31,793 nucleotides of DNA, from IMG/VR virus record IMGVR_UViG_3300032093_000542, positions 1 to 31,793 of that record, one strand, 5' to 3'. The notes under the pieces are model-generated. The model saw nothing but the letters and a program-made list of their open reading frames with translations, was not told the origin of the DNA and did not search any database. This document shows, piece after piece, positions 29,433 through 31,732 of this stretch. The stretch comes from a virus. The translations under genes and the position numbers were made by a program. How positions within the stretch are numbered: the first letter of the stretch is position 1; every line of letters begins with the position of its first letter.

Positions 29433-30091
29433 TTCAGCTCCTCCGGAGCCATCCCAAGCTCCGCATCGAGGTCTACAACCAGCGGAACGTCATCTACAGG
29501 GGCAAATTGGGTGGAATTGATGACATTTGCGTCTTCCACATCGTTTTTCAGGGCCTTGGACCGCAACGCCTGGAGCTTTTCACGCAACGATTGCTTCAAA
29601 TCATCCGTAGACCGGTGGGTAACCGTCACTTCCGAGCGTTCCGTGAACAAACCAACGTCAGAAATCTTGCCCAGAAGCTCTAAAGCACGAATACGCACCC
29701 TGGGATCAGGGTTTGACGCCTCTTGGAGCAGCTTGTTAGTAACAAACGTCCGAATCTGGACCGCATTACGCACCACCACATGGCTGAACTCCTGCAACGC
29801 ATCCTCCAACTGCAGGATTGCAGCGGGGCGCATGGCCGAAAACTTCGCCGGAGTCATGGATTTGTTGGTGGCCTCCTCGTCCTTGGCGTACGAAGTCAGT
29901 AGCTTTTCGACAACTACGTCGTCTTGGGGGTCATGCACCAGGGTTTCGGGGTCCAAACCATTCTCCAGAAGCACATGGATGGTCTTACATGCAGCAGCAG
30001 CCCGTTCACGCAACGTCGCGTGGGGCATATCCTCAGGGGGAACGATAACCCCGAGGTCTGGAGTAATAACTAGCTCAGGAGCACTAGGCAT
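29429..30091 (-). CDS. terS: Terminase small subunit (putative)
   Basis: This 220-residue protein is set to start at ATG 30091 (MPSAPELVITPDLGVIVPPE). Upstream in-frame TTG at 30151 would add an unlikely WYVPHHAWFHTK stretch. Helical pieces follow (TLRERAAAACKTIHVLLENG, LQLEDALQEFSHVVVRNAVQ, IRALELLGKISDVGLFTERS, LKQSLREKLQALRSKALKND), consistent with an oligomeric small terminase that recognises the packaging site. Identity rests mainly on coupling to terL. The visible ribosome site for 30091 is poor, so the start is uncertain. Confidence 0.72.
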   Translation of the reverse strand: MPSAPELVITPDLGVIVPPEDMPHATLRERAAAACKTIHVLLENGLDPETLVHDPQDDVVVEKLLTSYAKDEEATNKSMTPAKFSAMRPAAILQLEDALQEFSHVVVRNAVQIRTFVTNKLLQEASNPDPRVRIRALELLGKISDVGLFTERSEVTVTHRSTDDLKQSLREKLQALRSKALKNDVEDANVINSTQFAPVDDVPLVVDLDAELGMAPEELN

Positions 30092-30385
30092 AGATGTTCG
30101 CAACTTGGTATGGAACCAAGCGTGATGCGGAACATACCACAAAAATTGCAAAACACAAGGAGGTTGGGACTCCTACCGGGGGGTGTTTCTATATAGACGG
30201 GGGTGGGGTAGCGCCCTAGGGAATAAAAAGTTAGTAGGCGCTTACAAAGCCGAACGTAAAAAGTGGGCATCGCGGGCGCGGAATAGTAGCACCTAGCGGC
30301 GCGATGGAACCAAACGTCATTTTGGGGGGTGCCACCCCGGTGGGTCAATTGCCCGTAGGTTTCTACAATCAATCCCTGCCATCCC

Positions 30386-30413
30386 TTGCCATAACATGTC
30401 AACCCGTTACAGT
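30386..30413 (+). promoter_or_regulatory. Candidate promoter of the plus-strand gene
   Basis: TTGCCA (30386-30391) and TACAGT (30408-30413) are 16 bp apart, matching consensus at 5/6 and 4/6. Transcription would begin near 30420, so the inverted repeat at 30422-30444 would be at the start of the transcript or act as an operator. The match is only moderate. Confidence 0.35.
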
Positions 30414-30421
30414 TCGTCTCA

Positions 30422-30444
30422 TGGCATCGCTGACCACGATGCCA
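30422..30444. promoter_or_regulatory. 8-bp inverted repeat, possible operator
   Basis: TGGCATCG, a 7-nt spacer CTGACCA and CGATGCCA form a perfect inverted repeat. An 11-bp palindrome CGGGTTACCCG follows at 30451-30461. Both lie between the candidate promoter and the start codon of the only plus-strand gene, a typical place for repressor binding or leader structure. Confidence 0.55.
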
Positions 30445-30477
30445 CGTACACGGGTTACCCGGTACAACATGGTCGGT

Positions 30478-30496
30478 TGATTGAAAGGATCAATCA
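30478..30496 (+). promoter_or_regulatory. Hairpin presenting the Shine-Dalgarno in its loop
   Basis: TGATTGA (30478-30484), loop AAGGA (30485-30489) and TCAATCA (30490-30496) form a perfect 7-bp stem. The loop is exactly the ribosome binding site and the last stem base is the A of the ATG. This could be a translational control hairpin or a binding site for a regulatory protein. Confidence 0.6.
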
Positions 30497-31227
30497 TGGC
30501 TCCACGTATCAACGCACCCAAGGGTGCTATCGCCTCCGCCGCTGAGGTTCTGGTAAACGCTCAATCCGCCCCCGCGACGGATGACGATTCGAATTGGATT
30601 CCGGCCACCGAGGGTTTCATCGACGGGCGTTATGGTCTGGCAAAGGATCCTGAGGTTCGGCAGGTGTTGCCCCTCGCCATGAAGGCCACCGATGCTGCTG
30701 CTGTCACATGGGCGGTTCTGGCTGACCTTCTGTACGGTAAGGGTATCCGTGCTGGCATGTTGACTGGCAAGGACATGGTGGAAGAAACCCGCAACGAGGT
30801 TCAAGACCTTGTGACTGTTACGCGTTTTGGCAACACCATCGCTGCGGTTTACATGCGCGACGGTCAGGAGTTCAAGATTTCTGCGGTCGAAGACCTCCGC
30901 GCTTCCGATGATCGCAAGTCGATTCACTGGAAGATGATGAGCGAAGAGCGCAAGGACTTTGTGAAGATCCGCGCTGGCAGGGTTCGGGCTTACATGTCCG
31001 ACTTGATCGAGCAGCTCCGTCGATTCGATACCGCAGCGCCTAAGGGTAAACAACCTAAGGCAACCCTGGAAGAGCGCTACCTTACGCTACTCGGTCCGGT
31101 TCTGTTGTTCCTGCAAGGGATCGACCTGACCAAGGAAGACCCTAAGTTCGAATGGCGCGAAGAGTTTGACGCAATCAGCGCTGCAGTCGACCGCGCCAAG
31201 ACCGCCAAGAAATTGGCAGTCGGTTGA
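30496..31227 (+). CDS. Unknown protein, the only plus-strand gene of the window
   Basis: This protein has 243 residues from ATG 30496, chosen because GAAAGGA lies 6 nt upstream. An in-frame TTG at 30481 lies within the hairpin and has no site. It has a flexible Ala-rich start (APRINAPKGAIASAAEVLVN), DSNWIPATEGFIDGRYGLAK, a hydrophobic helix (KATDAAAVTWAVLADLLYGK), a strand section (DLVTVTRFGNTIAAVYMRDG) and a helical C-terminus (MSDLIEQLRRFDTAAPKGKQ, then LTLLGPVLLFLQGIDLTKED). There is no signal peptide, catalytic motif or zinc motif. It stands alone with its own leader and terminator, opposite to the late genes, which fits an early or replication-associated gene. I do not recognise the family. 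Confidence 0.85.
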   Translation: MAPRINAPKGAIASAAEVLVNAQSAPATDDDSNWIPATEGFIDGRYGLAKDPEVRQVLPLAMKATDAAAVTWAVLADLLYGKGIRAGMLTGKDMVEETRNEVQDLVTVTRFGNTIAAVYMRDGQEFKISAVEDLRASDDRKSIHWKMMSEERKDFVKIRAGRVRAYMSDLIEQLRRFDTAAPKGKQPKATLEERYLTLLGPVLLFLQGIDLTKEDPKFEWREEFDAISAAVDRAKTAKKLAVG

Positions 31228-31243
31228 TACCCTGACCCCTTCA

Positions 31244-31269
31244 AGCCCCACTTCGGTGGGGCTTTTTTT
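31244..31269 (+). terminator. Rho-independent terminator of the plus-strand gene
   Basis: AGCCCCAC (31244-31251), loop TTCG and GTGGGGCT (31256-31263) are followed by a run of T to 31269. The stem is 8 bp, very stable, and lies 16 nt after the stop codon. Confidence 0.95.
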
Positions 31270-31540
31270 CGTCCCTACACAGTCAAAACACCCCGCATCC
31301 CACACACCACACCACAACCCCGCAAGGGGATCGAGACCAGTTCTCCGAGCAGCGGGGAGGGGCACAACCAGCCCCGCGCAGCGGTGCGGACCACATTGCC
31401 CGTAACAAACCTACACCCATTTCAGCACCCCAACACCCCGAAACCAGTTCTCCGAGCAGCGGCGAGCGGCCCAATCGGCCCCCAAAACGTATTGTTCGTA
31501 ACGTAGCTACGACCATTGTGGGTAGTGTTCGTTTGTACTA
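31270..31540. other. Non-coding region with 20-bp direct repeats
   Basis: No credible gene is seen. ACCAGTTCTCCGAGCAGCGG occurs perfectly at 31336-31355 and 31443-31462, 107 bp apart, each followed by a GC-rich stretch containing GGCC or CCCCGC words. A perfect 10-bp palindrome CGTAGCTACG lies at 31502-31511. Composition shifts from GC-rich to AT-richer near 31490, where the TGTTC-rich array begins. Confidence 0.7.
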
Positions 31541-31732
31541 TGTTCGGATTGTTCTAATGTAGTTGGATGGACTGTTCGTAATGTTCGGACTTGTAATGTT
31601 CGAATGTTCGGGTTGTTCTAATGTTCTGTGTTCCACGTTTTGGGTTGTTCGAACGTAGTTGGATGGAATGTTCGGGTTGTTCTAATGTAGTAGTTTGGAA
31701 TGTTCGGATTGTTCTGTAGCCAATCTGGCGAC
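31541..31732. repeat. Tandem array of about six degenerate 32-bp units with paired TGTTC words
   Basis: Units begin at 31541, 31573, 31605, 31637, 31669 and 31701, exactly 32 bp apart. The best-conserved part is TGTTCGGRTTGTTCTAATG, two TGTTC words 9 bp apart, and in units 1 and 4 it is followed by GTAGTTGGATGGA. The fourth unit has lost the first TGTTC and the sixth has a diverged second half. More TGTTC words flank the array, 19 in all between 31493 and 31780. The period is not a multiple of 3, so it does not encode a protein repeat, and there are no unique spacers as in CRISPR. Confidence 0.85.

Follow-up and report, generated by a model that had tools for sequence, protein, structure and literature searches.

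The DNA analyzed here (hereafter the window) is a 31,793-nt stretch of viral sequence, near whose right end a plus-strand gene for a 243-aa protein follows a structured leader. The features of this locus, all on the plus strand, are as follows.

30386 to 30413, plus strand: sigma-70-like promoter TTGCCA-16-TACAGT, found by consensus scan
30422 to 30444, plus strand: hairpin H1, TGGCATCG - CTGACCA - CGATGCCA, found by folding (arms 30422-30429 and 30437-30444)
30432 to 30436, plus strand: probable pseudoknot strand 1 (GACCA), in the H1 loop, complementary to 30470-30474
30446 to 30465, plus strand: hairpin H2, GTAC-(A bulge)-CGGG - TTA - CCCG-GTAC, found by folding (arms 30446-30454 and 30458-30465)
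30470 to 30474, plus strand: probable pseudoknot strand 2 (TGGTC), directly 5' of H3, complementary to 30432-30436
30475 to 30495, plus strand: hairpin H3 in its conserved register, GGTTGATT - GAAAG - GATCAATC, abutting the ATG, found by folding and comparison
30485 to 30489, plus strand: Shine-Dalgarno (SD) sequence AAGGA, 6 bases 5' of the ATG, read from the sequence
30496 to 31227, plus strand: gene, 243 aa, without a match in Pfam, PHROG or INPHARED
31243 to 31269, plus strand: intrinsic terminator with a 9-pair stem, TTCG loop and T run, found by scan

The promoter recurs as TTGC-16-TA(C/T)AGT, its spacing unchanged, in each of eight close leaders examined, so transcription probably starts near 30420, which would place H1 at the 5' end of the transcript. 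A preliminary description of this DNA had credited the gene with a strong dedicated terminator, and this is real (hairpin 31243-31264, then a T run). Two of its other statements did not survive. The plus-strand gene seems "lone" only because the contig ends: relative L003 has further plus-strand genes downstream, whose matches include a weak one to DUF3150 and a clear one to an AAA ATPase. The 243-aa gene therefore opens a group of plus-strand genes beside a divergent promoter region. To call it the most heavily controlled gene of the window was too strong, as the minus strand has an equally good terminator (21697-21676) and a better promoter match (21609-21581). This second well-marked transcription boundary (21697-21581, minus strand) consists of a strong terminator followed by a TTGACA-17-TAGAAT promoter match.

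Upstream of the 243-aa gene, in the opposite orientation, lie a 220-aa gene, which from its position is perhaps the small terminase, and the large terminase gene. A G-rich stretch at 30318-30346 (CATTTTGGGGGGTGCCACCCCGGTGGG), 5' of the promoter and kept in close relatives, might be part of a packaging (cos/pac) site adjoining the terminase genes. On the 3' side of the gene, a 32-base repeat (ATGTTCGGATTGTTCTAATGTAGTTGG...) recurs about 5.5 times, in degenerate form, over 31540-31715; the array could be iterons or another control region. At the left end of the window, tandem repeats of 6, 12 and 18 bases (GGAGCA, AGTAGGCGCAGG), up to 100% alike, occupy 1-378 and 2071-2370 inside a long minus-strand open frame.

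Around the SD sequence the window carries, exactly as described beforehand, a perfect 7-bp inverted repeat, TGATTGA-AAGGA-TCAATCA, at 30478-30496 (arms 30478-30484 and 30490-30496), whose final A opens the ATG at 30496. Two registers compete here, at -5.1 kcal/mol for this repeat versus -6.1 kcal/mol for GGTTGATT/GATCAATC, in which 30475-30482 pairs with 30488-30495, including one G-U pair (G30476-U30494). The hairpin is real, but relatives keep the latter register, which abuts the ATG instead of including its A. The claim that the SD lies exactly in the loop holds roughly: in the kept register AAAG is looped, the GG sits at the loop edge and the A of GGA is paired. By the same token the SD is not paired in the stem in the manner of T4 e, soc and 49, stem contact being limited to the final bases of GGA. 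GAAAGGA around the SD is invariant among close leaders.

The 31-nt SD-hairpin segment has a predicted stability of -7.6 kcal/mol (z -2.44; 4 of 200 shuffles equally stable). Such stems are rare at start sites: a Watson-Crick stem of at least 7 bp encloses the SD at 3 of the 751 other SD-bearing ATG starts scored on the collected contigs, a control set drawn partly from contigs fetched by a DNA pattern (TTGAAAGGA..ATGG) and so, if anything, slightly biased against the finding, whereas all six distinct SD regions of the gene's close family have SD stems of 7-8 bp.

Scans of IMG/VR with the protein, the terminase and DNA patterns yielded, counting that of the window, nine distinct leaders of this gene, whose proteins range from 87 down to 57% identity to that of the window (L245 and L248-L251, also from the pattern scans, were set aside as chance matches rather than relatives). 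An SD-displaying hairpin with mutually matching arms is present in all nine, though the arm sequences differ. The 5' arm reads GGTTGAT in the window and GATTGAT in L045, L005, L014, L070 and L084; GATTGAT/ATCAATC becomes GATTCAT/ATGAATC in L083, GATTTGAT/ATCAAATC in L002 and L006, GATTGATT/AATCAATC in L004 and GATGATT/AATCATC in L040. The arms have therefore changed jointly, by a G-C to C-G swap, by paired one-base insertions and by shortening that left them matching. In every leader the 3' arm ends immediately 5' of the ATG. The 30478-30496 register survives in some relatives only, being broken in L002, L004, L006, L040 and L083. Predicted H3 stability stays between -6.1 and -7.6 kcal/mol across six variants.

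Two kinds of test were run side by side on these leaders. When arms, set by hand, were exchanged between relatives, 6 of 720 permutations equaled the native total stability for H3 and 4 of 720 for H2; H1 gave no significant result (1440 of 5040). In a MAFFT alignment of the nine leaders, 7 pairs of the 30-pair leader structure have changed on both sides, against a mean of 3.2 in shuffles, none of which reached 7 (0 of 500), and sliding the partners by 1-3 columns left 0-1 two-sided pairs. The counts are conservative for H3 because MAFFT misaligns its indels. RNAalifold, with the structure not supplied, recovered H1, most of H2, and H3, again with 7 two-sided pairs. We regard the covariation as good, not overwhelming, because few independent events stand behind nine leaders whose gene tree is poorly resolved.

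The two further inverted repeats noted just upstream in the preliminary description are present, at 30422-30444 and 30446-30465, and the one in the middle, H2, covaries strongly, with several pairs changed on both sides; L002 and L004 have a different hairpin in its place. H1 shows one A-U to G-C double change and, in three leaders, an A.C mismatch at the same pair. RNAalifold also proposed a 4-bp pairing of CCAU at the leader's 5' end with AUGG at the start codon, which has no two-sided change and is unproven. That description had named loss of the stem in relatives that keep the protein as the observation that would count against it; in the relatives compared, the stem has instead survived with compensatory changes, so a functional RNA element is well supported. 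Comparison shows that H2 and H3, as predicted structures, are kept base-paired, and the paired single-base indels are more readily explained by an RNA stem than by a DNA dyad. What is conserved extends beyond the SD hairpin and takes in the covarying H2 and a probable pseudoknot. A regulator, or the gene product, might bind the loop, as that description suggested.

The loop of H1, CUGACCA, is complementary to UGGUC(G) between H2 and H3. The core strands are invariant in all nine close leaders, and this invariance says nothing for or against pairing. Among distant relatives, L089 carries a TGACCA loop and, ahead of the SD, TGGTCA, and L090 has the same two strands; in L094 these are replaced by TGATTC and GAATCA, a three-pair compensatory change relative to L089. 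With strands exchanged between L089 and L094, the pairing is lost or weakened. Because complementarity in any single leader has a chance level of 0.02 to 0.44, the L094 change carries most of the weight, and covariation of the pseudoknot is seen only between these two relatives. These data suggest, less firmly than for H2 and H3, that the H1 loop pairs with the UGGUC upstream of H3, forming a pseudoknot that would end beside the SD hairpin. Its predicted geometry, with a short loop 1, a six-pair stem 2 and no base between the stems, matches a classical H-type pseudoknot. In the leaders of several distant relatives (L134, L095 and L139), the 5'-terminal hairpin has a 3' strand (CTCC or CCGAT) with two possible partners, its own 5' strand and the SD region, an arrangement that looks switch-like by eye.

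The encoded protein gave no match in tblastn of INPHARED phages or in the genome contigs searched. Iterative profile searches joined the window gene with genes transcribed away from the terminase at most of 78 loci, with a weak link or none for L147, L153, L156, L157 and L158; the stretches fetched from HTVC027P and 023Pt_psg01, the best INPHARED terminase matches, were part of the searched set and contained no match. This is a fast-evolving, unnamed protein family encoded opposite the large terminase gene. AlphaFold2 gave pLDDT 40 for the window protein with 8 relatives and a confident all-helical model (pLDDT 86.6) for family member L126 with 35 sequences. The L126 model had no Foldseek match at E 0.001 or better against PDB and viral models, and VIA-align returned a Z of about 5 over 44-47 residues only, which is uninformative; we therefore infer no function for the protein.

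Across the wider protein family most members lack H3 and have SD stems of 2-4 bp, and the idea of an SD hairpin common to the whole family was dropped in favor of one confined to the close clade. Weaker SD hairpins of 5-6 bp occur in L148, L154, L137, L104 and L131. The leaders of L126, L136, L142, L120 and L131 have a different SD hairpin, with AAGG in the stem (e.g. CCCTT-GA-AAGGG).

We propose, with a probability of roughly 0.6, that the leader of about 75 bases is a cis-acting RNA element controlling translation initiation. A 30S subunit could contact the SD in the H3 loop; the 3' arm of H3 takes up the entire SD-to-AUG spacer, so the stem would presumably have to melt before the AUG is seated. 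H3 would then set the rate, its stability lying in a narrow band near the limit where hairpins at ribosome-binding sites (RBS) start limiting translation. MS2 coat hairpins gave near-full expression at -6.6 to -7.9 kcal/mol and 20% at -9.5, values computed at 42 C with other parameters and hence only roughly comparable with H3 (PMC9894550). The comparison suggests that H3 is tuned near the stability threshold. Expression would cease if some factor kept the pseudoknot/H3 unit closed, and the likeliest such factor would be the gene product itself; by analogy with T4 gene 32, autogenous repression is a proposal we make tentatively. The promoter and terminator that frame the gene count in favor of a controlled unit. 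Against leader control, most of the wider family does without H3, so the protein does not need it, and H1 by itself draws no support from the arm exchanges; the near-neutral product (pI 6.0) and the lack of an informative match for a relative's predicted fold also weigh against it. That the leader founds a distinct class, with a 5' pseudoknot docked on the hairpin that displays the SD and kept closed by the encoded protein of the terminase-opposite family, is doubtful; if true, it would be a new class of autogenous phage switch across a large group of mostly uncultured phages.

The main rival is a constitutive leader that enhances or stabilizes: the 5' hairpin or pseudoknot would protect the mRNA or offer a standby site to the ribosome or S1, and a weak H3 would keep the SD displayed and free of other pairings, giving high, steady expression with no regulator. 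We consider this a minority possibility, yet a serious one. The conserved promoter, the hairpin at the probable 5' end and the dedicated terminator suit it, many distant relatives likewise start with a hairpin, H3 is weak enough for ribosomes to melt, and E. coli tisB needs a 5' pseudoknot for standby translation (PMC7708055). Standby in tisB, however, takes place about 100 nt upstream through a single-stranded region, whereas little free single strand is available here, and the repair of H3 by paired indels exceeds what mere accessibility seems to require.

Other readings are much less likely. A host repressor of the CsrA/Rsm type could target GGA in a loop over the SD; CsrA favors an ANGGA looped out by a short hairpin, frequently one that covers an SD (PMC7652899, PMC6028588), and the 30478-30496 register presents AAGGA in precisely such a 5-base loop. 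Yet it is that register which is broken in five relatives, the kept one pairs the A of GGA so that a looped ANGGA is not kept across relatives, the H3 stem is longer than in most selected CsrA ligands, and three phage records (fragments) contained no CsrA gene; we judge this improbable. Just as improbable is a DNA operator for a transcription factor: the perfect dyad does lie near a promoter, but some 55-75 bases downstream of the probable transcript start, its half-site spacing and arm length vary among relatives, and the kept register in the window includes a G-U pair. A leader peptide coupled to the gene (19 codons from an ATG at 30421 to an end inside the H3 5' arm) draws on a beginning common to relatives, ATG GC(A/G) TC(G/A) C(T/C)G ACC ACG, and on an ATG at the probable transcript start; frame length and stop vary, however, to 14 codons in L002 and L004 and to a frame in L005 that passes the gene start, which makes coupling very unlikely. 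Chance inverted repeats would accord with the modest single-sequence significance of the 90-nt leader fold (z -1.99), but given the covariation and the control starts we find chance scarcely credible, for H2 and H3 in particular.

Returning to the leader as a translational control element, Rfam release 15 gave no gathering-score match in the window and none up to E 10 in 30090-30560, and the parts of the design are known separately. The MS2 coat RBS likewise has a hairpin at the SD and start codon, with a translation rate that depends on stem stability (PMC9894550), but MS2 is an RNA phage and places SD and AUG differently in stem and loop. In T4, local RNA structure at the start sites of e, soc, 49, I-TevI and 25/38 tunes initiation (PMC3014915); e, soc, 49 and I-TevI have their SD or AUG hidden in the structure, whereas the window's SD is in a loop, and in 25 and 38 structure between SD and AUG shortens the spacing, whereas here the spacer is the H3 3' arm. 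E. coli tisB combines a pseudoknot near the 5' end with a structured RBS (PMC7708055), but is a toxin mRNA whose leader is long and whose standby region is single-stranded and lies apart. The rpsO (S15) leaders are under autogenous control and structured, sometimes pseudoknotted, with the SD included (PMC4137082); they belong to a ribosomal protein gene, and we claim no sequence relation. In the limited set of papers searched, none described a 5' pseudoknot together with a hairpin that displays the SD and abuts the AUG.

Few phage genes are known to be under leader-pseudoknot control, and a conserved, compact leader on an unnamed, widespread gene offers a clear, testable case; it marks out a gene whose dosage seems to be tightly controlled in these phages. 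A 2010 review considered T4 gene 32 possibly the only viral example of a pseudoknot in translational autoregulation (PMC3014915). The gene 32 operator of T4 and RB69, bound autogenously by gp32, places a pseudoknot 5' of the RBS within a phage leader (PMC535899, PMC3014915), a layout that the probable pseudoknot of the window would share. Its product is a single-strand-binding protein, and no sequence relation to the window system is claimed; its RBS region is unstructured with UUAAA/UAAA repeats, which are absent from the window leader, whereas the RBS of the window is a conserved hairpin.
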